A stretch of DNA of 33,318 nt, from the NCBI GenBank assembly GCA_014860115.1, contig JACZKK010000101.1:1-33318 (forward strand), read 5' to 3'. The position numbers were made by a program, and so were the translations under genes. The DNA is from Ignavibacteriaceae bacterium (GTDB lineage Bacteria > Bacteroidota > Ignavibacteria > Ignavibacteriales > Ignavibacteriaceae). Each line of letters begins with the position of its first letter. Position 1 is the first letter of the stretch. Under the pieces are notes generated by a model. The model searched no databases. It was not told the origin of the DNA and saw only the letters and a program-made list of their open reading frames with translations. Of the stretch, positions 2-29,224 are shown piece by piece.

Positions 2-355
2 GCGGGAAGTTACATATACAGATTAAAGCAGATAGATTTTGATGGCACTTTCACATATTCAGATGAAGTGAATGTTGAAGTTGAAATACCTCTGGTATAT
101 TCACTTGAGCAGAACTTTCCGAATCCATTTAATCCATCGACAACAATTAAGTATTCAATATCAGAAGATGGTTTTGTGAAGCTGTCAATTTATAACTTAC
201 TCGGAGAAGAAGTAACAACGCTTGTAAATAATGAACAAAAAGCCGGAAGATATGAAGTTGTGTTTGATGCTGCGAAACTTTCGAGCGGAGTTTATATGTA
301 TCGACTTGAATCGAAAAACTTTTTATCAATTAAGAAGATGTTATTAGTAAAATAG
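2..355 (+). CDS. C-terminal end of a secreted protein with a type IX sorting domain (partial)
   Basis: The reading frame is open from the left edge of the window, so the gene starts outside it; the internal ATG at 68 is not a credible start because the frame upstream already encodes the family's usual YRLKQIDFDGTFTYSDEV lead-in. The last 86 residues (nt 95-352) are a Por/type IX secretion C-terminal sorting domain, with NPFNPSTTIKY, an LGEEV turn, SGVYMYRL and a final KKMLLVK. In known systems this domain directs export through the outer membrane and is usually cleaved. It is more diverged than the three near-identical copies in the next genes (it reads SISEDGFVKLSIYNLLGEEV where they read ALPVDSKVKINVYNSLGQLV). 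The function of the missing N-terminal part cannot be told. Confidence 0.85.
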   Translation, partial: AGSYIYRLKQIDFDGTFTYSDEVNVEVEIPLVYSLEQNFPNPFNPSTTIKYSISEDGFVKLSIYNLLGEEVTTLVNNEQKAGRYEVVFDAAKLSSGVYMYRLESKNFLSIKKMLLVK

Positions 356-358
356 CGG

Positions 359-445
359 CCCTGCCTACCGGACAGGCAGGTTCCCTAAATCCCTCCAACT
401 TGTCCCGGCGAAGTTTCACTTCGACGGAAGGAGGGGCTTTAGGAA
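359..445. repeat. Composite extragenic palindromic element
   Basis: Two hairpins lie back to back directly after the stop codon of the first gene. The first has arms CCTGCCT (360-366) and AGGCAGG (374-380). The second pairs TTCCCTAAATCCCTCC (381-396) imperfectly with GGAGGGGCTTTAGGAA (430-445), with an inner GCGAAG...CTTCG stem. There is no U-tract, so it looks more like a REP-type element than a classical terminator. The GC-rich hairpin recurs at 4252-4282 and 29245-29265. Confidence 0.7.
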
Positions 446-515
446 TGAAGTTACAACTAGTATGTTCTGTAAAAAAAATAATTTAATGTTTAGTAATTAA
501 AACCAGGTGAGATAA

Positions 516-3500
516 ATGAATTCTTGTACTTGTAGAAAAGCTATCTATTGTCTTTTGCTCATTCTTCTTATTCCATCAGCCTCTTTTTCACAATGGCTGA
601 ACGATGGCGGAATAAAAACAAACATTCTGAGTGTAACATCTCAGAGTACAAAGGTTGAGTACATTCTTACTAACTATGACGAACGTTCGGTTGATGTTAA
701 CGGAACTGAATGTGCGCAATATCAGATTCCTGGCAGCATTGTTTTGATGGAAAAAGGAATGCCGCAGCTTCCATCAGACAGGAGAAGTATTGTAATTCCT
801 GATCTGGTTGGAACAAATTATTTAATCATTCATGCAGAATATGAGTTGATAGAAACTCTGCCTTTAATGCCTTCGAAAGGACATTTTACAAGGAATATTG
901 ATCCTGATTCAGTCCCATTTGAGTTTAATGAATTCTATTCAACAAATAGCTGGTATCCCTCAGAAAATATTTTGCTTGATGTTCCTTACATAGTTCGTGA
1001 TCTGCGGGGACAAACAATTCAGTTCAACCCAATGCAGTACAATCCAGCAGAAGGAAAACTAAAAATATGCAAACGAATTGTTGTTGAAGTTTTTAATGAT
1101 TTCAGTTTGCAAGCTGTGAATCCGTTTATCAGGAACAATCCTCTTGAAGCGGTTGATAAAGATTTCAATGAAGTTTATAAAACTCTCTTCATCAATTATG
1201 GAATCGGAGAATACGATTACGTTCCACTTGAAGAGACAGGAAGATTGCTGATAATATATCCAACAGCATTTGCAAGTAACGTAACACCGTTTTACAACTG
1301 GAAAGTTGAAAGAGGTCTCACTACTTTATTAGCTGAATATCCGACACAAACAGGGACAGGTTCAACAGCTATTAAAAATTATATTCAGAATCTTTACAAC
1401 TCACCGGAAGGATTAACTTTCATAATTCTTGTTGGAGAGTCAAATCAAATTCCAACTATTTACGGAGTGTCCGAAGGCGCACCTTCAGATCCTTGCTATA
1501 TAAAACTCGCAGGCAGTGATGCTTATCCTGATGCTTTTATTTCAAGAATTTCTCCGACTTCAGCAGCAAATCTTGATTATGTTCTCTGGAAATTGATCAG
1601 ATATGAGAAATATTCCGACACAGGACCTGATGCCGCGTGGTATTTAAAAGGCATGGGTGTTGCAAGCAATGAAGGCAGTCCTCCTGATTGGCAGCGTGCA
1701 AACCTGCTAAGAGATATGCTGATAAATGATATGTACTTCACGCAGGTTGATCAGATTTACGATCCGGGTGCAACAGCATCGCAGGTAACTAATGCACTTA
1801 ACAATGGAAGAAGTATTATTAATTATATTGGACATGGATCCGGAACATCATGGAGCACTACAGGTTACAGCAATTCAAACATTCATCAGCTTGCCAATGG
1901 TTATAAAAATCCATTCATAATTGATGTTGCTTGTGTGAACGGCAATTTTACTCTGAGTGAATGTATGGAAGAAGCATGGATACGAACCGGTGATATGAAT
2001 AATCCGAGAGGAGCTATCGCTGCATATGGTGCATCCACAAACGCAAGCTGGGTTCCGCCGTGTGATATGCAAAACCACGCAATGATGCTTTTAACAACAA
2101 GACAAAAACAGACGGTCGGTGGAGTTTGCTTTAACGGATTGATGCACGCAATGGATCTTTGGGGAGGAAGCACCGGTGAAGGTTTACAGCTTATGGAACA
2201 ATATAATATTTTTGGTGACTGCACGATGCTGCTTACAATGGGTGTAACTCCTGATACAGTGGCACCAGCACAAATTACAGATCTTGCAGCACTTGATCCG
2301 ACTTCAAATTCTGTTACACTAAACTGGACAGCACCGTTGGATTCTTCTTTCCTTGGAATTGTAAGCTATGATTTACGATACTCAACAACACCGATTGTTA
2401 CTAATAATGATTTTGAAAATGCACCACAGGTAATGGTTGCTGGCGGGCCGGATACCTCAGGAACACCAAAAAGTTATACTCTTCGCAATCTTAACTTCAG
2501 CACACAATATTACTTTGCGATTAAAGCATTTGACCTCTGGGGAAATAAATCTGTGATGTCTAATGTACCGGCGATGACAACCTGGAGCGCACCTCAGATA
2601 GCTGTTACTCCGGATTCGATGTACTGCCCACTTATGCCAAATACATCACACACAGATTCGGTTATGATATCTAACACAACATCCGGTAACTCAACACTTG
2701 ATTACCAGGTTGAGTTGATGAACAACACTTTTCCCGGACAGATAATTGCAAGAGTAGTACAGGTTAATAAATCAAACACGACAACAGCAACAAAAGAAAA
2801 TCCTGACCTGATGAAAGGAAGCAGCATTATGGGTTTAGGCGGACCAGACTTGTTTGGGTATGAATGGATAGACAGCAATGACCCACAAGGACCAGTCTAT
2901 GAATGGAATGATATATCAACAACAGGCACACTTGTAACTAACTGGGTTGCAACCAGCAGTTATCCACCTGTTGATGAAGGTAAAGCAGGGCCATTCCCTC
3001 TTGGTTTTACTTTTAAATACTATGGAATTGACTACAGTAATGTATGGTTCTGCTCAAATGGTTTCGTAAGTTTTATCGATATCACAGATGCTGCTATGAG
3101 CAACGCACAAATTCCAAATTCAGCTATTCCTAACAACATGATTGCAGGTATCTGGGATGATCTTGATGGAAAGACCACGGGAAAAGTTTATTACAAACAG
3201 GAAGCAACAAAATTTATTGTACAGTATGATAACTGGCCAGGATACTACACAGGAACAGGTCCTTTTACATGGCAGTTTGTTATTCATAAGAACGGTAAGG
3301 TAGTTCTGTATTATAAAACAATTACAGGTACATCAACCTCTGCGACTGTCGGCATTGAAAACCACAATGGAACAGACGGATTGCAGGTAGCTTACAATGC
3401 AACTTACCTGCAGAACAATCTTGCACTTCAGTTTTCTGCCGAGCCTGAATGGCTGACTGCTCAAAATATGCAGGGAACAGTTTACAACGGTAACTCAATT

Positions 3501-4205
3501 GCCGTTCTTTTGGACTTTGCTACTGAAGGACTGGACAGTGGTGATTACTCAATGGATATGGTGATAACAAGCAATGATCCACTTCATTCAGAAATTATTG
3601 TTCCAATTGCAATGAAGATAACAAGTATAGTTCCGGTTGAGCTTTCTTCTTTTACGGCAGAGAATGTTGATGACGAAGTTGTTCTTAAGTGGCAGACAGC
3701 AACGGAGACGAATAATCAGGGCTTCGAAATTGAAAGAAGTCAAAAGTCAAATGTCAAAAGTCAAACCGATTGGGTTAAGATTTCTTTTGTTGAAGGAAGA
3801 GGAACAACAACTGAAATGACTGACTATGCTTACAGAGATAAAATCACTAATCCCGGAAATTATGTTTACAGGTTAAAGCAGTTAGATTTTGATGGAACAG
3901 TTTCATACAGCGAAGAGGTAGAAATTGATGTAACCGAACCGAAAGAGTTTACTTTGTATCAAAACTACCCCAACCCATTCAATCCCTCAACTACAATCAA
4001 GTTTGCTTTGCCGGTAGACAGCAAAGTAAAAATAAATGTTTATAACTCACTTGGACAGTTAGTTGAAACATTAGTTGATAAAGAAATGGAATCCGGTTAT
4101 CACGAAGTAAACTTCGATGCATCACGATTAGCAAGCGGAGTTTATCTGTATCAGCTCCAAAGTAGCGACTACGTTTCTGTAAAGAAGATGTTGCTTATTA
4201 AGTAA
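516..4205 (+). CDS. Gingipain-like C25 cysteine peptidase with type IX sorting domain
   Basis: This is a 1229-residue secreted protein. Residues 1-25 are a signal peptide ending SASFSQ. Residues ~240-580 carry the peptidase C25 (gingipain) fold: the catalytic dyad is visible as His440 in YIGHGSGTSW and Cys473 in DVACVNGNF. Their spacing of 33 matches gingipains as I recall them. A fibronectin-type-III-like domain follows at ~583-690 (DTVAPAQITDLAAL...VTLNWTAP). Next come a beta-rich region with a YYGIDYSNVWFCSNGFVSF motif (~830-960), an immunoglobulin-like linker (VELSSFTAENVDDEVVLKW) and the 86-residue sorting domain. It probably acts as an exported or surface-attached endopeptidase; the substrate is unknown. 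An AGGTGAG site precedes the ATG. Four tandem heptamers inside the gene (3739-3766) are described separately. Confidence 0.9.
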   Translation: MNSCTCRKAIYCLLLILLIPSASFSQWLNDGGIKTNILSVTSQSTKVEYILTNYDERSVDVNGTECAQYQIPGSIVLMEKGMPQLPSDRRSIVIPDLVGTNYLIIHAEYELIETLPLMPSKGHFTRNIDPDSVPFEFNEFYSTNSWYPSENILLDVPYIVRDLRGQTIQFNPMQYNPAEGKLKICKRIVVEVFNDFSLQAVNPFIRNNPLEAVDKDFNEVYKTLFINYGIGEYDYVPLEETGRLLIIYPTAFASNVTPFYNWKVERGLTTLLAEYPTQTGTGSTAIKNYIQNLYNSPEGLTFIILVGESNQIPTIYGVSEGAPSDPCYIKLAGSDAYPDAFISRISPTSAANLDYVLWKLIRYEKYSDTGPDAAWYLKGMGVASNEGSPPDWQRANLLRDMLINDMYFTQVDQIYDPGATASQVTNALNNGRSIINYIGHGSGTSWSTTGYSNSNIHQLANGYKNPFIIDVACVNGNFTLSECMEEAWIRTGDMNNPRGAIAAYGASTNASWVPPCDMQNHAMMLLTTRQKQTVGGVCFNGLMHAMDLWGGSTGEGLQLMEQYNIFGDCTMLLTMGVTPDTVAPAQITDLAALDPTSNSVTLNWTAPLDSSFLGIVSYDLRYSTTPIVTNNDFENAPQVMVAGGPDTSGTPKSYTLRNLNFSTQYYFAIKAFDLWGNKSVMSNVPAMTTWSAPQIAVTPDSMYCPLMPNTSHTDSVMISNTTSGNSTLDYQVELMNNTFPGQIIARVVQVNKSNTTTATKENPDLMKGSSIMGLGGPDLFGYEWIDSNDPQGPVYEWNDISTTGTLVTNWVATSSYPPVDEGKAGPFPLGFTFKYYGIDYSNVWFCSNGFVSFIDITDAAMSNAQIPNSAIPNNMIAGIWDDLDGKTTGKVYYKQEATKFIVQYDNWPGYYTGTGPFTWQFVIHKNGKVVLYYKTITGTSTSATVGIENHNGTDGLQVAYNATYLQNNLALQFSAEPEWLTAQNMQGTVYNGNSIAVLLDFATEGLDSGDYSMDMVITSNDPLHSEIIVPIAMKITSIVPVELSSFTAENVDDEVVLKWQTATETNNQGFEIERSQKSNVKSQTDWVKISFVEGRGTTTEMTDYAYRDKITNPGNYVYRLKQLDFDGTVSYSEEVEIDVTEPKEFTLYQNYPNPFNPSTTIKFALPVDSKVKINVYNSLGQLVETLVDKEMESGYHEVNFDASRLASGVYLYQLQSSDYVSVKKMLLIK
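3739..3766 (+). repeat. Tandem 7-bp repeat inside the C25 peptidase gene (4 copies)
   Basis: Four consecutive heptamers of the form GTCAAAN (last base A, T, A, C) encode the SQKSNVKSQT stretch between FEIER and DWVKI. The period of 7 is not a multiple of 3, so gain or loss of one unit would shift the frame upstream of the sorting domain. Confidence 0.85.
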
Positions 4206-4209
4206 TTTT

Positions 4210-4236
4210 GTAGCACAGATTAATAATCTGTGCTAC
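4210..4236. repeat. AT-rich perfect inverted repeat after the C25 gene
   Basis: The arms GTAGCACAGATT (4210-4221) and AATCTGTGCTAC (4225-4236) are perfect 12-base complements with a 3-base loop. It starts 5 bases after the stop codon, so it could end or protect the transcript. No strong U-tract follows. A degenerate version (TAGCA...TGCTA) lies at 28181-28200. Confidence 0.75.
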
Positions 4237-4251
4237 TGTAATAATATTATG

Positions 4252-4282
4252 GGCGACCTGCCTGCCGGCAGGCAGGGTCGCC
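4252..4282. repeat. GC-rich palindromic repeat (CCTGCCTG family)
   Basis: This is a near-perfect 31-base palindrome. The arms GGCGACC (4252-4258) and GGGTCGCC (4275-4282) enclose the core TGCCTGCCGGCAGGCA. It stands out against the AT-rich surroundings and belongs to the same family as the hairpins at 360-380 and 29245-29265. The rest of the 227-base gap, 4283-4432, shows no gene. Confidence 0.8.
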
Positions 4283-4432
4283 GACTTGCCCTTTTAATTA
4301 ACCGATGTTGGTCTTTAAAATAAGACTTGACAATTAAAAAAATATTATTGACGTTTCCTTCAAACAAAAAGAGGAGTTTGCGAATCAAATAATTTTACCT
4401 TTCTTTCAATAACTATTAAAAGAGGTAATAAG

Positions 4433-5839
4433 ATGAAAGGCATAACATTTTTTCTTCTGCTCGTTACTTTTTCTACTCTCCATTCACAGCCGGTTACACT
4501 CCGCGATACAACAAACCAGTACGATTACATCATCATCACAGTTCCTGAATTCTTAACAGCTTGCGAACCTTTCAGACAGCATAAAGAAACGGTAAGAGAT
4601 TTCAGAACGCTTGTTATTGACACAACTCAAATCTTTGCCGAATTCGATTCAAGTGCAACGCCACAGGATAACATCAGAGATTTTATCAGCTATGCAGGAA
4701 CATTCTGGAAGGAATCGAGACCGAAATATTTTCTTATTGTTGGTACGGTTCTAATGGTTCCAAATTTCCCAATACCATTTCTACCAGGACCCATTTATTT
4801 TTATTCGGACTATTACTATTGTCAAAATATTTATGAAAATGACACAACAACAACAGATTTTTATATTGGAAGAATTCCGGGTAAAAATGAAACTGAAGTC
4901 ACTAATTACTTTTTAAAAGTTATAAGCTATGAATCTGATGACTCTTTACTTTCCTGGATAAATAATGCGTTATTCCTCTGTGCAGGTGACGGTATTCAAA
5001 ACTTGGAATTTGCTTTTGAATTAGCATCTTTACTCCCGTCATACATAAAACCTTTCTATATTGCCGAAAATGACACTTCGCAATATTACGGCACTCTCGA
5101 TTCGATTTATCAGGCAATAAATCAAAAAGGCAATTCAGTTGTATGGTTATTTGGACTTAGCGATGATCCATATATTGGTGGGTCAGATTGGCTTAAGCCT
5201 GAAGATCTGAATGGATTTTCAAACGAAGATAAATATTTTTACACTATTTCATCTGGTCGCCAGAGGGCTATTCTTGATACAAACACCAATTTAAGCCATG
5301 CAATGTTGGTACTTCCCAATGCTGGTTCGATAGGCGGTAGTGTATTTGTAGGTTATACTTACTCCAGCATTAATAGGGAATTTCAAATTAATTGGGCATC
5401 AAGGTTGTTCAATCCTCTATATAACTCAATTGGTGAAGTATTTGTTTCTGATAATTTACCATTCAACGGACTTTATAATTATGTTCGAAAAGTAGCAAAC
5501 CTTTGGGCAGACCCTTCATTAAAATTAAAATACGATGAAACTGTTGGTGTTGAGAAAGTTGAAGAAGAAATTCCACAAAGTTTTACACTCTATCAGAACT
5601 ATCCCAACCCATTCAATCCATCAACTACAATTAAGTTTGCATTACCGGTGGACAGTAAAGTAAAAATTAATGTTTTCAACTCACTCGGTCAGTTAGTTGA
5701 AACATTAATGGATAAGGAAATGGAATCCGGTTATCACGAAGTGAGTTTCAACGCTTCGAAGTTAGCAAGCGGAGTTTATTTGTATCAAATGCAGGCAGGA
5801 GAAAACGTATCTATTAAGAAGATGATTTTGCTGAAATGA
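4433..5839 (+). CDS. Catalytically degenerate C25-like secreted protein with type IX sorting domain
   Basis: The product has 468 residues and a signal peptide (cleavage likely after STLHSQ). Its body resembles the C25 peptidase N-lobe: YDYIIITVPEF near the start, YFLIVGTVLMVP, and YIGRIPGKNETEV, the usual lead-up to the catalytic region. At the place of the catalytic His the sequence reads WLFGLSDD instead of YIGHGS. About 31-32 residues later it reads YTISSGR instead of VACVNG, so both the His and the Cys are missing. The protein is therefore probably a non-catalytic binding or inhibitory relative of peptidase C25. The last 86 residues are a sorting domain almost identical to that of the upstream peptidase gene. 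An AGAGGTAA site precedes the ATG. The gene is intact, without internal stops. Confidence 0.8.
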   Translation: MKGITFFLLLVTFSTLHSQPVTLRDTTNQYDYIIITVPEFLTACEPFRQHKETVRDFRTLVIDTTQIFAEFDSSATPQDNIRDFISYAGTFWKESRPKYFLIVGTVLMVPNFPIPFLPGPIYFYSDYYYCQNIYENDTTTTDFYIGRIPGKNETEVTNYFLKVISYESDDSLLSWINNALFLCAGDGIQNLEFAFELASLLPSYIKPFYIAENDTSQYYGTLDSIYQAINQKGNSVVWLFGLSDDPYIGGSDWLKPEDLNGFSNEDKYFYTISSGRQRAILDTNTNLSHAMLVLPNAGSIGGSVFVGYTYSSINREFQINWASRLFNPLYNSIGEVFVSDNLPFNGLYNYVRKVANLWADPSLKLKYDETVGVEKVEEEIPQSFTLYQNYPNPFNPSTTIKFALPVDSKVKINVFNSLGQLVETLMDKEMESGYHEVSFNASKLASGVYLYQMQAGENVSIKKMILLK

Positions 5840-5899
5840 ACATCTACGTAACTCTAGTTTAATAAATAATTTTTAAATGTTTTTTTGGGCGAGTTAATT

Positions 5900-8608
5900 A
5901 TGAACAAGTATATCTCTTATTTACTGCTTTTCGTGATAAATATTATTTTGACTATTAGTACACTTTCATTTGCTCAGGTAGTTGATGAAAATCTTTGGGT
6001 TCCAAACGGACATGTCTTTACTTCAACCATATCAGGAAATACAATTTATATCGGAGGATTATTCACTCAAATTGGTCCTTCAACCGGTCACGGGGCAGCT
6101 ATCGATATAAGCACAGGCGAACCTAATTTAAATTTTACAAAAGTTAACGGGCCAATATTAACAGCTGTCTGCACTGATGAAGGAGACTGGTACATCGGAG
6201 GATTTTTTACAGAAGTTGATGGTATCCCGAGAAATAACCTTGCACACATTTACGCTGATGGGACTCTTGACTATAGTTGGGATCCTAATCCAAATAGTAG
6301 GATTTTGGTTATGAAACTAAATGATTCACTACTATATCTTGGAGGTGATTTTACTGAAATTGGCGGTGAAACGAGAAATTATATTGCAGCATTAGATCTT
6401 GATACTAAACAACCAATTAGCTGGAACCCAAATGCAAATTCTGCGGTTTGGTCTCTTTGTATTTCTGATTCTATTATTTATGCAGGTGGTCAATTCACTC
6501 AGATTGGAGGACAGCAAAGAAAATATATAGCCGCTATAGATATTATTTCAGGATATGCGAATAGCTGGAATCCAAGTGCAAATAATCAAGTTTGGACATT
6601 GACCATTTCTGGTTTAACTCTGTATGTAGGAGGTCGTTTCTCTCAGATTGGTGGAGCACAACGAAACTATGTAGCTGCATTAGACATTTTAACAGGTAAT
6701 GCAAAAACTTGGAATCCTAATTCAAGTAGCGATGTACGCAGTATAATAGTTTCAGGTTCAAATGTTTATGTAGGTGGTTTATTTACTCAGATTGGTGGAG
6801 AACAACGTAATCGTATTGCGGCTATAGATACATCTACTGGTCTTGCAACTGACTGGGATCCCGACGCAAACGGTGTCGCCGTGTTTTCAATTGGAATTTC
6901 TGATTCAACAGTATATGCTGGGGGTAAATTTACAACCATCGGAGGAGAAACACGAAATAATATAGCCGCATTAAACATTAATACAGGTCACGCAACTAGT
7001 TGGAATCCGAACGCTAATGATGAAGTTGGCACTCTTACTATATCAAATTCTACAATATATGCTGGAGGTGAATTTTTTAGTATTGGTGGTGTCGAAAGAA
7101 GATATTTAGCTGCTTACGATGTAAGTAATGGAATGTTGTTAGATTGGAACCCAAATGCAAATAATCGGATTCGGTCCCTGGTTGCTGATGATTCAACAAT
7201 TTATGTTGGCGGAGATTTTACCGAGATTGGCGGAGAACAGAGATTTGGTATTGCAGCTGTAAATGCAATATCGGGACAAGCAACTTACTGGGCACCAAAT
7301 GCCAATAATAAGGTTTATACTCTGGCAGTATCTGGTTCAACTGTTTATGCGGGAGGTGAATTTATTAACATAGGTGGAATGCAGAGAAATTATATAGCTG
7401 CTATAGATAAAGTCACTGGTAATGCAACTTCCTGGAATCCTAACGCCAACAATATAGTGGGAACTCTACTTGTTTCGGACACATTGGTTTATGCGGGTGG
7501 TTATTTCACTCAAATTGGGTCTGAGCAACGAAATTATATTGCCGCATTGGAAAGAACCACTGGCTATGCAACCAACTGGAATCCAAATGCAAATGATTGG
7601 GTATATGAAATCCAGAAAAATGATTCGTTAATTTATGTCGGGGGAGAATTCACAAACATAGGAAACAATCAAAGGAGTCGAATTGCTGCTATAAATACTC
7701 TTACTGCAAGTGCAACTGACTGGGCTCCTAATGCAGATAATGGTGGACCGCCAGCTACATTTGTAGAAGCCATTGCTATTTCAGATTCATTAATTTATGC
7801 GGGCGGGGATTTCAGAATAATTGGTGGCAAGCTAAGAAATTCAGTTGCCTGTTTGGATATTAAAGATGGCACCGCTACAGATTGGGATCTTCAATTTTAT
7901 ATTTTTAGCCCTGTCCCCCAAGGACAAGTTTTTACAATAGAAGTTTATAAGTCCAGAGTTTATGTTGGTGGTTTTTTCCACGATGTTAAACATAAGATAC
8001 AACCTTATTTTACTTGCGTGACTTCTGATATTATACCCGTCGAACTAATTACATTATCCGCTTCAGTTATTGATAATCAAATAGAAATATATTGGAAAAC
8101 TGTAACTGAGACAAACAACTCGGGTTTTGAGATTCATCGCAAGAGGTTAGAAGCAATAAGTCGTGAGTCGGAATGGGAGACTATTGGATTTGTTCCGGGT
8201 TTTGGAACGACGACTGAACCAAAATCTTATTCATTTATTGATGAAAATATTACAAACGGAAACTACAAATACAGGCTCAAACAAATTGATTTCGATGGAA
8301 CTTTTTCTTACAGCAATGAAGTAGAAATTGATGTAACTGGTCCGAAGGAATTTACTTTGTATCAGAACTTTCCAAACCCGTTCAATCCGTCAACAACAAT
8401 TAAATTTGCTTTGCCTGTTGACAGCAGAGTGAAGATAAATGTGTATAACTCACTCGGACAGTTAGTTGAAGCACTGGTTGATAAAGAAATGGAATCCGGT
8501 TATCACGAAGTAAACTTTAATGCATCAAGGTTAGCGAGTGGAGTTTATTTGTATCAGCTTCAAGCTAGTGAATATGTTTTTGTGAAAAAAATGATTCTAC
8601 TTAAATAA
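5900..8608 (+). CDS. Secreted beta-propeller-repeat protein (DUF5122-like) with type IX sorting domain
   Basis: I place the start at ATG 5900 (MNKYISYLL, then a hydrophobic signal peptide ending LSFAQ), not at the in-frame TTG at 5885, giving 902 residues. About 14 repeats of roughly 49 residues follow, each with a core like YVGGxFTxIGGxxRNYIAA, then a TGxAxxWNPNAN segment. This pattern is that of the YxGG/DUF5122-type beta-propeller repeats of bacterial surface proteins. The array ends near nt 7985 and is followed by the same linker as in the C25 gene (VELITLSASVIDNQIEIYW) and the 86-residue sorting domain. The likely role is adhesion or ligand binding outside the cell; the ligand is unknown. 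No catalytic motif was seen. Confidence 0.85.
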   Translation: MNKYISYLLLFVINIILTISTLSFAQVVDENLWVPNGHVFTSTISGNTIYIGGLFTQIGPSTGHGAAIDISTGEPNLNFTKVNGPILTAVCTDEGDWYIGGFFTEVDGIPRNNLAHIYADGTLDYSWDPNPNSRILVMKLNDSLLYLGGDFTEIGGETRNYIAALDLDTKQPISWNPNANSAVWSLCISDSIIYAGGQFTQIGGQQRKYIAAIDIISGYANSWNPSANNQVWTLTISGLTLYVGGRFSQIGGAQRNYVAALDILTGNAKTWNPNSSSDVRSIIVSGSNVYVGGLFTQIGGEQRNRIAAIDTSTGLATDWDPDANGVAVFSIGISDSTVYAGGKFTTIGGETRNNIAALNINTGHATSWNPNANDEVGTLTISNSTIYAGGEFFSIGGVERRYLAAYDVSNGMLLDWNPNANNRIRSLVADDSTIYVGGDFTEIGGEQRFGIAAVNAISGQATYWAPNANNKVYTLAVSGSTVYAGGEFINIGGMQRNYIAAIDKVTGNATSWNPNANNIVGTLLVSDTLVYAGGYFTQIGSEQRNYIAALERTTGYATNWNPNANDWVYEIQKNDSLIYVGGEFTNIGNNQRSRIAAINTLTASATDWAPNADNGGPPATFVEAIAISDSLIYAGGDFRIIGGKLRNSVACLDIKDGTATDWDLQFYIFSPVPQGQVFTIEVYKSRVYVGGFFHDVKHKIQPYFTCVTSDIIPVELITLSASVIDNQIEIYWKTVTETNNSGFEIHRKRLEAISRESEWETIGFVPGFGTTTEPKSYSFIDENITNGNYKYRLKQIDFDGTFSYSNEVEIDVTGPKEFTLYQNFPNPFNPSTTIKFALPVDSRVKINVYNSLGQLVEALVDKEMESGYHEVNFNASRLASGVYLYQLQASEYVFVKKMILLK
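6041..7985 (+). repeat. Tandem ~147-bp coding repeats (14 YxGG units)
   Basis: Counting the YxGG cores gives 14 units: YIGGLF, YIGGFF, YLGGDF, YAGGQF, YVGGRF, YVGGLF, YAGGKF, YAGGEF, YVGGDF, YAGGEF, YAGGYF, YVGGEF, YAGGDF and YVGGFF. Spacing is about 49 codons through the middle of the array. The units are diverged at DNA level, so this is an old protein repeat, not a recent expansion. Confidence 0.85.
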
Positions 8609-8623
8609 TATTTTCACTTTTAA

Positions 8624-8675
8624 AAAGATGACATCTCTTCCGTCATAGGCAGACGAGCAGAGAGATGTCATCTTT
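8624..8675 (+). terminator. Probable transcription terminator or structured 3' end
   Basis: The perfect 15-base arms AAAGATGACATCTCT (8624-8638) and AGAGATGTCATCTTT (8661-8675) enclose a 22-base loop and end in a short T run. It starts 15 bases after the stop codon of the repeat protein. The remaining part of this ~300-base gap holds only the promoter-like element at 8844-8859. Confidence 0.65.
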
Positions 8676-8843
8676 ACTGTTTAATTTTACACTCACCAAC
8701 TCTTGCCAATCATCAATTAAAAAACGCCAAATTTCTTTTCTCTTTTGAGAAAAAAACCTTCCAATTATTAAGAAAAAGATTATTGATCAAACATTTAAAA
8801 TGGCTTTAAATCATTTAAAGCAACACTGAATTATTGATGAATA

Positions 8844-8859
8844 TGGCATTTAATATGCG
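8844..8859 (+). promoter_or_regulatory. Sigma-54-type -24/-12 promoter candidate of the hydrogenase operon
   Basis: TGGCAT-N5-ATGCG has the invariant GG and GC of sigma-54 promoters separated by exactly 10 bases (consensus TGGCAC-N5-TTGCA). It begins 66 bases before the receiver gene's ATG and would start transcription near 8870. A sigma-54 activator is encoded in the same window (20296-21660). Confidence 0.5.
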
Positions 8860-8909
8860 TATCAGCGATAACTTGAAATCGAACATTAATTCAACAATAG
8901 GGTAATATT

Positions 8910-9290
8910 ATGGCACTTATAGCAGTAATAGATGATGATAATGATATCCTCGATGCAAGCAGTCTGGTACTGACAGCAAAAGGATATGAAGTAATCACCG
9001 CTGATAATCCTGATGATGGTTATAAAATTGTTAAAGAGAAAAAACCCGATCTCATCATACTTGATGTAATGATGAATGAACCCGACGATGGTTTTTTCCT
9101 CGCACAAAAATTCAGAAAAGAAAAATTTGAGATACCAATCATTATGTATACATCTGTATCGAAAGCATTGGGACTTGAGTTTGCAGCAGGTGAAATGGTT
9201 CCGGTGGATGAGTTTATTGAAAAACCAATATCACCCGACACTTTAATTGACAAGGTAGAAAAACTTTTAAAATTACATTATAAGGAGTGA
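8910..9290 (+). CDS. Stand-alone CheY-like receiver protein
   Basis: The 126-residue product is a single receiver domain without an output domain. Acidic residues of the active site are at IDDDND (8-12), the phosphoacceptor is Asp52 in LIILDVMM, the switch Thr is Thr81 (MYTS), and the conserved Lys is Lys105 in IEKPIS. It is the first gene of the hydrogenase operon: its TGA ends 4 bases before the next ATG, and an AAGGAG site for that gene lies inside its end. A receiver-only protein works by binding a partner after phosphorylation; here it may connect a kinase (possibly the one at 13060) to control of the hydrogenase, which is inference. Confidence 0.85.
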   Translation: MALIAVIDDDNDILDASSLVLTAKGYEVITADNPDDGYKIVKEKKPDLIILDVMMNEPDDGFFLAQKFRKEKFEIPIIMYTSVSKALGLEFAAGEMVPVDEFIEKPISPDTLIDKVEKLLKLHYKE

Positions 9291-9294
9291 GTAA

Positions 9295-9768
9295 ATGTTT
9301 GTAGCAGAAAAAAATGCTCTCTCCGAAGAAATAGAGAGCTACGTAAATAAATACGGAAATGACCGCTCAGCCTTACTGATGATTTTGCATGAAATTCAGA
9401 ATAAGCACAGACATATTTCTGAGTTCGCACAGCAGGAAGTTGCACGTCTTCTGAATATTCATCCGGTGGAAGTTTACAGCGTCATTTCCTTTTTTGCATT
9501 TTTAAATTCAAATCCTAAAGGAAGAAATCTTGTTCGCATCTGCCAGACAATTTCCTGTGATATGAAAGGCAAAAGCGGTCTGGTTAAAGCTATTGAGCGT
9601 GAGCTGGGAATTAAAATCGGCGAGACAACAAAGGATAATAAATTTACAGTTGAATATGCTAACTGTCTCGGCTTGTGCGACATGGGTCCGGCGATGGCAA
9701 TCAATGACCAGGTTTTTCTTCAGCTTACTCCCGAAAAAGCAGTTGAACTTCTCGGAAAGGTGAAGTGA
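9295..9768 (+). CDS. hydC: [FeFe]-hydrogenase gamma subunit, NuoE-like (HydC)
   Basis: The protein has 157 residues, the usual size of the NuoE/24-kDa family. It has a helical N-terminus (~1-75) followed by a thioredoxin-like [2Fe-2S] domain. The four ligands are visible as Cys83 and Cys88 (CQTISC) and Cys124 and Cys128 (CLGLC). In trimeric electron-bifurcating hydrogenases this subunit passes electrons between the flavin subunit and the rest of the complex. The start ATG has an AAGGAG site overlapping the end of the receiver gene. The stop codon overlaps the beginning of the next gene's ribosome-binding region, indicating tight co-translation. Confidence 0.9.
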   Translation: MFVAEKNALSEEIESYVNKYGNDRSALLMILHEIQNKHRHISEFAQQEVARLLNIHPVEVYSVISFFAFLNSNPKGRNLVRICQTISCDMKGKSGLVKAIERELGIKIGETTKDNKFTVEYANCLGLCDMGPAMAINDQVFLQLTPEKAVELLGKVK

Positions 9769-9770
9769 TT

Positions 9771-10979
9771 ATGGAAACAATAAAAAAGAAAAGAACAGGT
9801 CCGGTTATCTTCTCTGAATACAAAAGAGGAGATGCTATTAAAAAAGCAATTTTAATGACACGCGAAGATATTTTATTTGAATTGAAAGATTCCAAACTGA
9901 AAGGAAGAGGCGGGGCAGGGTTTCCAACTTCAACAAAGTGGATGTTGACTGCGGCTGCTAAGTCCGACGATAAATTTCTTGTCTGTAATGCAGACGAAGG
10001 TGAACCAGGAACATTTAAAGACAGAGTTCTCCTGATGGAATACCCTGAACTTGTTTTTGATGGAATGGTCGTAGGTGGTTATACAATTGGTTCACAAAAA
10101 GGTATTGTTTATCTGCGCGGTGAATATGAATACCTTCTTAAACCTCTTCAGGATTATCTCGAAGTGATGAGAAAAGATAATCTGCTAGGTAAAAATATTT
10201 TTGGTAAAAAGGATTTCAATTTTGACATTGAAATATTCCTTGGCTCAGGGGCTTATGTGTGTGGTGAAGAAACAGCTCTTATTGAATCTCTTGAGGGACA
10301 TCGTGGTGAACCTCGCAACAGACCACCATATCCAATAAACACAGGATATCTTGGCAGACCCACATCAGTTAATAATGTTGAAACACTTGCGGCAGTAAGC
10401 CATATCGTTGTAAAAGGCGGCAGCTGGTTTGCAAAATTCGGAACGGATAAATCATCAGGTTCAAAACTGTTTTCAGTTTCGGGTGATTGTGAAAAACCAG
10501 GTGTTTACGAACTTCCCTGGGGAACAAAAATCTCGGAACTGCTTAAAATTGTAGAAGCAAAGAATACAAAAGCAGTTCAGATTGGCGGAGCTTCAGGTCA
10601 TTGTGTACCAAAATCTCAATTTGATAGAACAATGGCTTATGAAGATGTTGCAACGGGTGGATCCGTTATGGTTTTTAATGAAAGCAGGGATATGCTTCAT
10701 GTGTTAAAAAACTTTATGGAATTTTTTGTTGAGGAATCATGCGGACAATGCACACCCTGCAGAATGGGTAATGTAAAATTGCTCGAAGGTGTTGAGATGA
10801 TAGAAAAAGGTGAATACACTTTCGCTCATATAAATAAATTAAAAGATCTTGGCAGAACAATGCAGATGGCCTCCAAGTGCGGGTTAGGTCAATCGAGCCC
10901 GAATCCGTTCATCTCTATTCTCGAAAATTTTAATGATGAAATATTTAACGCTGGTAATGGAGGAAGAAATGGAAAGTAA
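9771..10979 (+). CDS. hydB: [FeFe]-hydrogenase beta subunit, NuoF-like flavoprotein (HydB)
   Basis: I chose ATG 9771 over the in-frame GTG at 9765, which overlaps the previous stop codon; the product has 402 residues. The FMN-binding loop GRGGAGFP is at 45-52, the NADH-site motif GEETALIESLEG at 165-176, an SLBB-like domain at ~230-300, and the [4Fe-4S] ligands are Cys324, Cys327, Cys330 (CGQCTPC) and Cys370. This is the NAD(H)-reactive, FMN-containing subunit. It is shorter than the ~600-residue HydB of Thermotoga because it lacks an N-terminal thioredoxin-like part and a C-terminal ferredoxin-like extension. It overlaps hydA by 11 bases. Confidence 0.9.
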   Translation: METIKKKRTGPVIFSEYKRGDAIKKAILMTREDILFELKDSKLKGRGGAGFPTSTKWMLTAAAKSDDKFLVCNADEGEPGTFKDRVLLMEYPELVFDGMVVGGYTIGSQKGIVYLRGEYEYLLKPLQDYLEVMRKDNLLGKNIFGKKDFNFDIEIFLGSGAYVCGEETALIESLEGHRGEPRNRPPYPINTGYLGRPTSVNNVETLAAVSHIVVKGGSWFAKFGTDKSSGSKLFSVSGDCEKPGVYELPWGTKISELLKIVEAKNTKAVQIGGASGHCVPKSQFDRTMAYEDVATGGSVMVFNESRDMLHVLKNFMEFFVEESCGQCTPCRMGNVKLLEGVEMIEKGEYTFAHINKLKDLGRTMQMASKCGLGQSSPNPFISILENFNDEIFNAGNGGRNGK

Positions 10980-12882
10980 AAAAACATTAAGAGCACCGGT
11001 AAGTCAAAAACCGCTGGTAATTGAAAAGCCGGAAAATCCCGAATACATTGGCGGATCGGTTTCAATTGAAATAAACGAAAAGAAATTCTCTGTTCCTCTT
11101 GGTACAACTATACTTGAAGCATGCAGACAAAACCAGATCCACATTCCAACACTGTGTCATCACGAAGATTTATGTGTTGCCGGAGTTTGCAGAATATGTG
11201 TTGTTGAAGTTGAGGGCATGCGAACACTTCAGGCTTCGTGTGCTTTTCCAATTACAGCACCGATAAAAATTAAAACAACCTCGAACGCTGTAAGAAGATC
11301 CAGAAAACACATTATCGATTTACTGCTTAGTGAACATTACGGCGAGTGTTATTCCTGTTTTAGAAATAACAATTGTGAATTGCAATCGCTTGCAAAAGAA
11401 TATGGTGTTGATCACTATAGCTTCGGTCATATTCAAAATCCAAGATATGAAGTAGACAATTCTTCCTATTCTGTTGTCAGGGATATGGATAAGTGTATAC
11501 TCTGCAAACGATGTGTAAGAACATGTATTGATCTTCAGGAAGTTGGTGTGCTTGAAGCAATCGGCAGAGGGCACGATACACACATTGGAACTTTTTGGGA
11601 TAAGCCATTAGCTGAAGTAATTTGTATCAACTGTGGTCAATGTATAAACCGTTGTCCCACTGGTGCATTACGTGCAAATGATCCTCGCGATGAAATATGG
11701 TCCGCGATTGATAATCCGAAAAAACATGTTGTGATTCAGACAGCGCCATCACCAAGAGCAGCAATTTGTGAAGAATTTGGAATGGAACCGGGAACGTCAC
11801 TAACCGGAGAAATGAATACAGCTTTAAGAAGAATCGGTTTTGATGTTGTTTTTGATACAAACTTCACTGCTGATTTAACAATCTTCGAAGAAGGAACTGA
11901 ACTAATTCAAAGATTATACAATGCACTGGTGAAGAAAGAACAGGTTGCTTTACCGCAATTTACATCATGTTCACCGGGATGGGTGAAATATCTTGAACAT
12001 TTTTATCCTGAGTATGTTGACAACCTCAGTTCGGCAAAATCGCCGCAGCAGATGTTCGGCGCACTTATCAAAACATTTTATGCAAAGAGAAAAGGAATCG
12101 ATCCAAAGGATATAGTATCTGTTGCCGTAATGCCTTGCTCAGCAAAGAAGTTTGAGTGCAACAGACCGGAAATGGTTGATTCAGGATTTAAGGATGTTGA
12201 CTATGGTTTGACGACAAGAGAACTTGCACAGATGATAAAAGAAGCCGGAATCTATTTACCTGAAATGCCAAAGTCACACTTTGATGATCCGTTTGGTGAA
12301 GCATCCGGTGCAGGCTTGATATTCGGCGCAACCGGTGGGGTGATGGAAGCCGCTTTGAGAACTGTTGTTGAATTTATTACAGGAAAGAAAATAGAAAATA
12401 TTTTTGCTAATGCTGATATAACTCCGGTAAGAGGATTCGAAGGAATAAAATATGCCGAGCTTCCAATTAGTGATGTTGGACCTGTGCCGAAGTTGATTGC
12501 ACATCTTGTTCCGGATTGGAACTGGCTGAAAGGTGCAACACTAAAGATTGCAGTTGTTCATGGGACTGCCAACGCAAAGAAAGTAATGGACGATATTAAA
12601 GCCGGCGGCAAGTTCAGTGAATGTCACTTCATAGAATTTATGGCTTGTCCCGGAGGTTGCATTGGCGGTGGTGGTCAGCCAATTCCAACAACACCCGAAA
12701 TACGTAAACTCAGAGCAAAAGCAATTTATGATGAAGACAAATCTTTGCCTGTCAGAAAATCACACGAGAATCGTCATGTTGTTGAAATTTATAATGAGTT
12801 CTTAACTGATGGTCCTTGTGGACACATCTCTCACAAGCTTCTTCATACTCATTATATAAAACGTGGTAAGTATATTGCATAG
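10969..12882 (+). CDS. hydA: [FeFe]-hydrogenase catalytic subunit (HydA, trimeric bifurcating type)
   Basis: The start is ATG 10969, 3 bases downstream of a GGAGGAAG site, giving 637 residues. Domains in order: plant-type [2Fe-2S] (Cys63, 74, 77, 91), His-Cys3 [4Fe-4S] (His123, Cys127, 130, 136), and two [4Fe-4S] ferredoxin motifs (Cys176/179/182/186 and 219/222/225/229). The H-cluster domain follows, with L1 TSCSPGW (332-338), L2 MPCSAKKFE and L3 FMACPGGCIGGGGQP (Cys560, Cys564), then the short C-terminal small-subunit-like segment. It catalyses reversible H2 formation. With the two preceding subunits it probably couples H2 to both ferredoxin and NAD(H); bifurcation itself is inferred from gene composition. 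L1 has Ser where many enzymes have the second Cys. No maturase genes (hydE, hydF, hydG) are in the window. Confidence 0.93.
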   Translation: MESKKTLRAPVSQKPLVIEKPENPEYIGGSVSIEINEKKFSVPLGTTILEACRQNQIHIPTLCHHEDLCVAGVCRICVVEVEGMRTLQASCAFPITAPIKIKTTSNAVRRSRKHIIDLLLSEHYGECYSCFRNNNCELQSLAKEYGVDHYSFGHIQNPRYEVDNSSYSVVRDMDKCILCKRCVRTCIDLQEVGVLEAIGRGHDTHIGTFWDKPLAEVICINCGQCINRCPTGALRANDPRDEIWSAIDNPKKHVVIQTAPSPRAAICEEFGMEPGTSLTGEMNTALRRIGFDVVFDTNFTADLTIFEEGTELIQRLYNALVKKEQVALPQFTSCSPGWVKYLEHFYPEYVDNLSSAKSPQQMFGALIKTFYAKRKGIDPKDIVSVAVMPCSAKKFECNRPEMVDSGFKDVDYGLTTRELAQMIKEAGIYLPEMPKSHFDDPFGEASGAGLIFGATGGVMEAALRTVVEFITGKKIENIFANADITPVRGFEGIKYAELPISDVGPVPKLIAHLVPDWNWLKGATLKIAVVHGTANAKKVMDDIKAGGKFSECHFIEFMACPGGCIGGGGQPIPTTPEIRKLRAKAIYDEDKSLPVRKSHENRHVVEIYNEFLTDGPCGHISHKLLHTHYIKRGKYIA

Positions 12883-28267: not shown

Positions 28268-29224
28268 ATGGATTTTCAATATTCGGATAAGCCGGAACCG
28301 CATAAAGAGCGAACAAAGCAAATTCTTAAAGCTCACCCTGATGTGAGAAATTTGATCGGTAGGAATTCTTTCAGTGCGGTGATTACAATTTTTGTCGTAA
28401 CTCTGCAATTCGTTATTGCATATTTGCTCGCTGATCAGGTTTGGTGGCTGACAATAATTGTAGCATTCTTCATCGGTGCATTTGCTGACCATAATCTTTT
28501 TGTTTTAATTCACGAAGCTTCACACAACCTAATATTTAAGAACAGAACACTAAACACGATTTTCGGAATTATTGCCGACCTCCCGAAAGTTGTCCCGAGT
28601 TATGTTTCATTCAAATCATATCACCTGAAACATCATTCATTCCAGGGAGATTATTATCTTGATGCAGATCTGGCAAGTAAGTGGGAAGCAAAACTTATCG
28701 GCAATACATTTTTAGGAAAAATGTTGTGGGAACTTTTCTTTCCATTCTTCCAAGCGTTCAGGACAATGCGTCTTAAAGAAATTGAGTTTATGAACAGGTG
28801 GGTTATTATAAACTGGATTGTTGTCTTTGTTGTTGATGTATTGATAATTATTTACTTCGGATGGACTGCAATGCTTTATCTTGTTTTTTCACTCATCTTT
28901 TCGATTGGACTTCATCCGCTTGGTGCAAGATGGATACAGGAACATTTTCTTGTTGCACCACCGCAGGAGACTTACAGCTATTACGGTCCGTTAAATATTC
29001 CCTCACTGAATGTTGGCTATCACAATGAGCATCACGATTTTCCTTCCATTCCATGGAACAATCTCCCTCTCTTAAAAAAGGCAGCGCCGGAGTTTTATGA
29101 TACGCTAGTTTATCATAAATCCTGGTTCAAACTATGGCTTAGATTTTTATTCGATCCTCAGCTTTCACTTTATTCGAGAATGGTTAGAACGAATAGGGGA
29201 GAATTAAAGGTTACTGCAGAGTAA
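28268..29224 (+). CDS. Sphingolipid delta-4 desaturase-like membrane enzyme (DEGS1-type)
   Basis: The 318-residue product has about four hydrophobic segments and the three His boxes of membrane diiron desaturases: His82...His86 (HEASH), His119/122/123 (HLKHH) and His252/255/256 (HNEHH). The wording around the last two boxes (HPLGARWIQEHF, ETYSYYGPLN, VGYHNEHHDFPSIP) and the N-terminal region (PHKERTKQILKAHPDVRNLI) are those of dihydroceramide delta-4 desaturases, otherwise best known in eukaryotes. It would introduce the 4,5-trans double bond of ceramide-like lipids using electrons from an unseen donor. No other sphingolipid gene is in the window. An in-frame TAA ends it cleanly; upstream is GAGAGAAATAAA. 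Confidence 0.85.
   Translation: MDFQYSDKPEPHKERTKQILKAHPDVRNLIGRNSFSAVITIFVVTLQFVIAYLLADQVWWLTIIVAFFIGAFADHNLFVLIHEASHNLIFKNRTLNTIFGIIADLPKVVPSYVSFKSYHLKHHSFQGDYYLDADLASKWEAKLIGNTFLGKMLWELFFPFFQAFRTMRLKEIEFMNRWVIINWIVVFVVDVLIIIYFGWTAMLYLVFSLIFSIGLHPLGARWIQEHFLVAPPQETYSYYGPLNIPSLNVGYHNEHHDFPSIPWNNLPLLKKAAPEFYDTLVYHKSWFKLWLRFLFDPQLSLYSRMVRTNRGELKVTAE

Follow-up and report, generated by a model that had tools for sequence, protein, structure and literature searches.

Does a bacterium of the family Ignavibacteriaceae introduce a double bond into its ceramides? The question is raised by one gene in the window, as we call the whole stretch of 33,318 nucleotides analyzed here, which is contig C155 of a 3.93-Mb genome (222 contigs, 99% complete, 3.6% contamination). 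To our knowledge, the sphingolipid Delta4-desaturases (DES) are otherwise known from eukaryotes, and among titles and the beginnings of abstracts in the open-licence literature we found no report of a bacterial dihydroceramide desaturase, though one may exist. A 2023 review gives the bacterial product as dihydroceramide, distinct from ceramide (PMC10191378). A first-pass annotation of the window had proposed that the gene encodes an animal-like dihydroceramide desaturase and that this lineage either makes unsaturated ceramides or received the gene by transfer.

A DES-family gene in the window

The ORF lies where the first-pass annotation had placed it, is intact from its ATG start codon, has no internal stop codon, and encodes a protein (L036) with the following features.

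28268..29224, + strand: predicted sphingolipid Delta4-desaturase (DES/DEGS family) gene, 318 amino acids (ORF; PF00487 and PF08557 above cut-off; AlphaFold2 mean pLDDT 91.5)
28271..28366, + strand: N-terminal Lipid_DES domain, residues 2 to 33, with invariant P11, H12 and R15 (Pfam PF08557; invariant columns)
28442..29104, + strand: FA_desaturase domain, residues 59 to 279 (Pfam PF00487)
28511..28525, + strand: histidine box 1, HEASH, residues 82 to 86 (H82 and H86 invariant in 50 aligned sequences)
28622..28636, + strand: histidine box 2, HLKHH, residues 119 to 123 (H119, H122 and H123 invariant in 50 aligned sequences)
29021..29035, + strand: histidine box 3, HNEHH, residues 252 to 256 (H252, N253, E254, H255 and H256 invariant in 50 aligned sequences)

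Two domain models bore out the proposed family assignment at scores well above anything expected by chance: FA_desaturase (PF00487) at 109.3 bits against a cut-off of 29.7, and Lipid_DES (PF08557, “Sphingolipid Delta4-desaturase”) at 46.7 bits against a cut-off of 23. The window gene is the sole PF08557 match in its genome. The protein passes no NCBIfam cut-off, reaching 21.8 of 500 bits with the NCBIfam DesA model. Across 50 bacterial DES (the window protein and 49 relatives), 48 alignment columns are invariant, 12 of them histidines. When uncurated eukaryotic sequences were compared, human DEGS1 kept 44 of the 48 residues with all 12 histidines, DEGS2 kept 43, the fly enzyme 45, and the Arabidopsis enzyme 46. 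For three bacterial desaturases of other kinds the counts were 18, 20, and 22 of the 48, with eight histidines each, in an alignment that is poor at that distance. Judged by its sequence, the window protein is a member of the DES family.

Bacterial acyl-lipid desaturases of the DesA type share the PF00487 superfamily and the histidine boxes with DES, and this genome has one of its own, since its other FA_desaturase match, L001, is DesA-like (441.8 of 500 bits). Both facts would fit a window enzyme that is a common fatty-acid (acyl-lipid) desaturase of bacteria with no more than a likeness to DES, a reading we regard as very unlikely. L001 is 20.7% identical to the window protein, and Lipid_DES is matched by the window gene only. 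The 22 non-DES desaturases compared (21 from seven same-phylum genomes plus L001, with eight more matches lacking a locus left out) gave at most 45 bits against the window protein and at most 24% identity over stretches of at least 99 residues, whereas bacterial DES gave 260 to 382 bits. A quick tree with five such distant desaturases as the outgroup placed all DES on one side, on very long outgroup branches, with L001 outside the DES group; the window protein thus did not fall among other bacterial fatty-acid desaturases, in agreement with the annotation. Ceramide genes lying near DES in four relatives (see below) also argue against this reading.

The AlphaFold2 model of the window protein, built with 50 bacterial sequences, had a pTM of 0.89. 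Its best fold match was a subunit of the algal FtsHi complex, a motor complex (8xks_K, Z 18.3, 3.9 Å over 281 residues), followed by AlkB (Z 14.5 to 14.9, with 8f6t at 14.9) and SCD1 (Z 6.7 to 6.9). A DES structure was absent from the matches of the fold search, and a sequence search for solved relatives returned none of its kind, giving one chance match at E 3.8. The modelled fold fits a membrane di-iron desaturase or hydroxylase and is silent on the substrate.

Because a 91 to 92% identical copy is present in a same-genus genome assembled as one contig (G294, L032/L156), the desaturase gene is not an assembly stray. It stands alone in the window, between a probable outer-membrane protein gene upstream and 2-oxoacid:ferredoxin oxidoreductase genes downstream (names assigned by eye). 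Scans for promoters and terminators near the gene gave no signals above those of shuffled sequences. Apart from DES itself, just one of the families recurring at no fewer than four DES loci included an ORF of the window; it is large, sensor-kinase-like, and apparently unrelated. The runs of neighbors common to close DES relatives held no lipid gene by eye. Elsewhere in the window, several large proteins encoded at 68 to 8608 have, by eye, nearly alike C-terminal tails of the NPFNPSTTIKF type, like those of proteins exported by type IX secretion. NuoE-like, NuoF-like, and iron-hydrogenase-like genes (by eye) lie in a row at 9295 to 12882, suggesting a bifurcating hydrogenase in an organism with two membrane desaturases and two COX1-family genes.

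Relationship to the eukaryotic enzymes

The gene had been described as very close to eukaryotic DEGS1. This holds for the motifs on which the description was based, as HNEHHDFPSIP, ETYSYYGPLN, and HPLGARWIQEHF were all found letter for letter, and the window protein shares with the uncurated DEGS1, ifc, and plant DES sequences the Lipid_DES and FA_desaturase domains, the 12 invariant histidines, and the HNEHH box. Closeness is limited to these motifs, because whole-chain identity to the uncurated human DEGS1 sequence is 36.4% over 316 amino acids (fly, 41.2%; Arabidopsis, 42.4%; both also uncurated), that is, 36 to 42% overall.

Our main tree, a careful IQ-TREE run without an outgroup, had 63 rows: 28 of 80 named loci chosen by hand, the 29 G loci, L175, four uncurated eukaryotic sequences, and the window protein. 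In it, 54 bacterial rows that included the window protein were split with support of 100/100 from the four eukaryotic rows and five rows from family f30, so that “animal-like” is not a description the tree upholds. The 19 Ignavibacteria rows, the window protein among them, formed one clade with support of 99/99; they comprised G loci from the same order, records so labelled, and L076 “BRH_c32,” which we assigned by hand. AU tests, with uncurated eukaryotic rows and with groups defined once the first tree (one with an outgroup) had been seen, rejected a union of Ignavibacteria with eukaryotes and f30 (p-AU 3.4e-4) and a union of Ignavibacteria with eukaryotes (p-AU 8.8e-6, under a constraint that also separates eukaryotes from f30).

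These results bear on the suggestion that the lineage acquired the gene from a eukaryote, untied to its own lipids. The apparent restriction of DES to eukaryotes outside these bacteria, its patchy presence (30 of 296 phylum genomes), and a third-position GC content of 0.364, slightly above the 0.279 to 0.343 of the seven other window ORFs compared, would all fit such an uptake. It is nevertheless extremely unlikely in our view, given that the Ignavibacteria form a single clade inside the bacterial one, that their union with eukaryotes is rejected, that the overall GC content of the gene (0.381) is like that of the window (0.377), and that the genome has candidate sphingolipid pathway genes. 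These sequences thus give no support to a transfer from a eukaryote into the Ignavibacteria lineage, and the desaturase looks long held within Ignavibacteria rather than recently gained.

A second, more eukaryote-like DES occurs in 5 of 92 f30 genomes (L022, L023, L024, L025, and L175). Identity to the uncurated human DEGS1 sequence is 48.7% for L022 (51% to the fly enzyme) and about 43% for L023 to L025. Four other f30 genomes carry a DES of the bacterial clade (L043, L044, L048, and L049). In the quick tree the eukaryote-plus-f30 group was drawn within the bacterial part with support of 81, but the root of that tree is unreliable because the outgroup branches are very long. Eukaryotes and the bacterial clade as a whole may have exchanged the gene at an earlier time, in either direction.

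A candidate ceramide pathway in the same genome

A search of the genome for serine palmitoyltransferase (SPT) and ceramide synthase, the check proposed with the annotation, found candidates for spt, bcerS, and cerR together on another contig, C188 (locus L052), so the outcome that would have told against the proposal, a genome with no sphingolipid pathway, did not occur.

C188 3295-4485, - strand: SPT-like gene (NF047600, structure matches)
C188 2101-3237, - strand: GNAT-superfamily acyltransferase, bCerS candidate, 57 bases downstream of the SPT-like gene (position and superfamily)
C188 4598-5590, + strand: NAD epimerase-type reductase, CerR candidate, divergent (position and superfamily)

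The arrangement resembles that of Caulobacter, in which the ceramide pathway consists of SPT, the acyltransferase bCerS, and the NADH-fold reductase CerR (PMC11087976): an SPT candidate, a GNAT gene directly downstream, and a divergent epimerase-type gene, the latter two assigned by position and superfamily. The desaturase would be an added step here; the text of that paper does not contain the word “desaturase.” The window gene differs from eukaryotic DES in its separate bacterial clade, in being accompanied by candidates for a bacterial-type ceramide route, and in a genome in which no cytochrome b5 was detected.

The best model for the SPT candidate was NF047600 (serine palmitoyltransferase) at 494.7 bits, under the cut-off of 640, and its best structural match was the Sphingobacterium multivorum SPT 3a2b at 401 bits. 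Cysteate acyltransferase structures scored lower (SulA 7u7h, 194 bits; 28eh, 231 bits). Lys281 of SulA is reported to replace an Ala of SPT (PMC9304779). At the SulA Lys281 position, 30 residues past the PLP lysine, the candidate has Ala274.

Four alpha-oxoamine synthase (AOS) enzymes were recognized in the genome: the SPT candidate, one SPT/BioF-like enzyme, and two Kbl. None of the 19 aminotransferase-fold matches (four scanned with models, the rest judged by eye) was SulA-like. Structures of BioF/Kbl and SPT are the closest matches of the second AOS enzyme, L006 on C132. Its gene lies (L053, C132 1762-10937) amid those for two SDR reductases and a DAGK/YegS-type lipid kinase, together with UbiA-like and acyl-CoA ligase-like genes (both by eye), possibly a second long-chain-base-like pathway. 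On C208, two adjoining glycine C-acetyltransferase (Kbl) genes (L054, 8252-10936) both score over the curated cut-off.

Linkage of DES to sphingolipid genes in relatives

Although the window desaturase and the SPT candidate are unlinked in their own genome, DES might be linked to the pathway elsewhere. A GTDB genome scan yielded at least 581 relatives among at least 596 pattern matches, of which the best 80 were kept as named loci, and our SPT, bCerS, and CerR candidates served as tblastn queries (E 1e-8) against up to 8 kb on each side of these. Three loci from Saprospiraceae (L089, L096, and L106) had SPT (45 to 46% identity), bCerS (41 to 45%), and CerR (27 to 30%), all beside DES. In a fourth (L111, Flavipsychrobacter, Chitinophagaceae), CerR and bCerS lay near DES, bCerS being truncated where the retrieved sequence stops. 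The clustered CerR proteins were 27 to 31% identical to our candidate. The gene orders were as follows.

L096: hydroxylase 3810-4442, SPT 4517-5752, bCerS 5801-6922, CerR to 7905, DES 7989-9002, MIPS 9059-10414
L089: hydroxylase 4948-5637, SPT 5634-6860, bCerS 6857-7999, DES 7968-8993, CerR 8990-9982
L111, first part: bCerS, CerR, MIPS, PgpA, GtrA-like (by eye), outer-membrane gene (by eye)
L111, continued: CDP-alcohol transferase, DUF4833, FA_hydroxylase, DES, PAP2_3

L106 has the gene order of L096, and successive ORFs of L089 overlap by 4 to 32 bases, with starts chosen mechanically. Against the NF047600 cut-off of 640, the SPTs scored 640.0 (L089), 630.3 (L096), and 636.8 (L106), in stretches trimmed by their BLAST ends. 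In the DES tree, the four linked loci belong to two regions distinct from each other. At 29 same-phylum DES loci, searched for up to 10 kb on each side (less at contig ends), there was no nearby SPT, bCerS, or CerR, and the other cluster genes were likewise absent. Overall, DES lies in a sphingolipid cluster at 4 of 109 loci (the best 80 of at least 581 relatives plus the 29 same-phylum loci, with some genomes in both sets).

Ceramide backbone genes, a hydroxylase, DES, and an inositol lipid set stand together at L111 (1-9906), L096 (3810-16722), and L106 (3780-16379), with spt at L096 and L106 only. In Bacteroides thetaiotaomicron, BT_1522-BT_1526 form a characterized inositol-sphingolipid cluster whose product is phosphoinositol dihydroceramide (PMC9246714). 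The same kinds of genes are found at L111, L096, and L106 (MIPS, PgpA, CDP-alcohol transferase, and PAP2_3/AUR1-like), which add DES, FA_hydroxylase, bcerS, and cerR; the text of that report does not mention a desaturase by that word. From their gene content, these clusters would predict unsaturated, hydroxylated inositol phosphoceramides.

The hydroxylase genes also bear on whether the window enzyme hydroxylates dihydroceramide at C4 to give phytoceramide, alone or in addition to desaturation, as eukaryotic DEGS2 does. The DES family includes bifunctional members. The third histidine box of the window protein, HNEHH, is that of DEGS1 rather than the HVEHH of an uncurated human DEGS2 sequence, there being no known proof that this residue decides the reaction. 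FA_hydroxylase genes lie near DES at five loci, the four clusters and L108, a Leptospiraceae MAG in which the gene adjoins DES with no other cluster gene, so hydroxylation has another candidate enzyme; our genome holds a 55% identical copy of the L111 FA_hydroxylase (199 amino acids). DEGS2 does yield phytoceramides, as reported in PMC11765627, and we judge hydroxylation by the window enzyme unlikely though worth keeping in mind.

Distribution and overlap with sulfonolipid genes

PF08557 was found in 30 of 296 phylum genomes, a patchy distribution, and in 9 of 92 f30 genomes, but was absent from all 14 controls. Most of the best 21 named relatives (among the best 80 of at least 581) bear the labels Ignavibacteria, Melioribacter, or “Bacteroidetes bacterium,” so that our genome very probably belongs to the Ignavibacteria. 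Outside Bacteroidota and Ignavibacteriota, the matches listed include single MAG records labelled KSB1, Leptospiraceae, Dadabacteria, and Gemmatimonadales (labels as recorded), and relatives also occur in records not labelled as metagenome assembled, from Chitinophaga (C. japonensis and C. rupis), Mucilaginibacter (M. galii), Flavisolibacter (F. longurius), and Puia (P. dinghuensis). At the search settings used, no relative was found in viruses or on plasmids.

A bCerS-like protein (E <= 0.001) was present in 30 of 30 DES+ and 257 of 266 DES- genomes of the phylum sample. DES did not track SPT significantly (27 of 30 DES+ versus 198 of 266 DES- genomes; Fisher p 0.07, uncorrected for kinship), SPT being called at E <= 1e-100, a limit set after the tables had been viewed, with genomes sorted by hand. 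Because the upstream genes are nearly ubiquitous in the sample, these co-occurrences are uninformative.

Three of the 30 DES+ genomes (G249, G146, and G150) had no clear SPT, and each had a SulA-like AOS enzyme, scoring 552 to 565 bits against SulA 7u7h and 219 to 237 against SPT (G249, 565 and 223; G146, 552 and 219; G150, 554 and 237). Among three DES+ genomes with SPT that we looked at, G033 and G191 also had an AOS enzyme bearing the Lys typical of SulA; none was seen in G099. That Lys is present in L217 (G033), L216 (G191), L213 (G146), and L214 (G150), and the AOS enzymes closest to SulA structures are L209 (G249), L213, and L214; the +30 marker is imperfect, since L209 has Ala there and is yet closest to SulA. 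The sulfonolipid flavocristamide A is reported to have the same double bond as proposed here for ceramide, but it carries no weight in our argument. With a SulA-like enzyme but no clear spt in 3 of the 30 carriers, some DES relatives possibly act on sulfonolipids, and by their genes bacterial DES may serve sulfonolipids in some lineages. These genomes could be taken to mean that the window enzyme itself acts on a sulfonolipid (N-acyl capnine) and not on a ceramide. We nonetheless find this highly improbable, given the four AOS enzymes of its own genome (with the other fold matches judged by eye) and the Ala of its SPT candidate where SulA has Lys.

Proposed function and its implications

Taken together, membership in the DES family and a candidate sphingolipid pathway make it probable that the window gene encodes a ceramide Delta4-desaturase. 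Its likeliest product, as predicted here and as the annotation had read it, is Delta4-unsaturated ceramide. The integral-membrane di-iron desaturase would use O2 to dehydrogenate the long-chain base of dihydroceramide at C4 and C5 and so form a (4E)-unsaturated ceramide, as with eukaryotic DEGS1. Dihydroceramide would be supplied by the C188 route, through SPT (C188:3295-4485) and the bCerS and CerR candidates. Two COX1-family genes in the genome suggest O2 use, in a family that also includes nitric oxide reductases. Cytochrome b5 is the electron donor of eukaryotic DEGS1; because no match to it (PF00173) was found in the genome at E <= 0.001, the donor here would probably be ferredoxin or another carrier. 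We infer the substrate, where the double bond is placed and with what geometry, the electron donor, and expression.

A wider reading, which we regard as rather unlikely, is that the whole bacterial DES branch, with records labelled Ignavibacteria, Saprospiraceae, Chitinophagaceae, Sphingobacteriaceae, and several further phyla, provides its carriers with true unsaturated ceramides, in some of these bacteria inositol phosphoceramides made from one eukaryote-like cluster, and that the eukaryotic enzyme arose within this bacterial diversity, with the f30 proteins (L022 to L025 and L175) its closest sampled relatives. A Black Sea survey reports 229 sphingolipid structures of varying unsaturation, 1-deoxyceramide-type bases being mostly without it (PMC11334938), and its text lacks the word “desaturase.” Since those structures vary in unsaturation, unsaturated ceramides of possible bacterial source may already be published without a gene.

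Our results suggest that true unsaturated ceramides are made by some bacteria, although bacteria are said to lack this step. If so, free-living Bacteroidota and Ignavibacteriota would break the rule that bacteria make dihydroceramide rather than ceramide, and a check would be needed before Delta4-unsaturated ceramides from sediment, soil, or sludge were assigned to eukaryotes. There would also be bacterial systems in which to study the DES enzyme and to ask where the eukaryotic enzyme came from.
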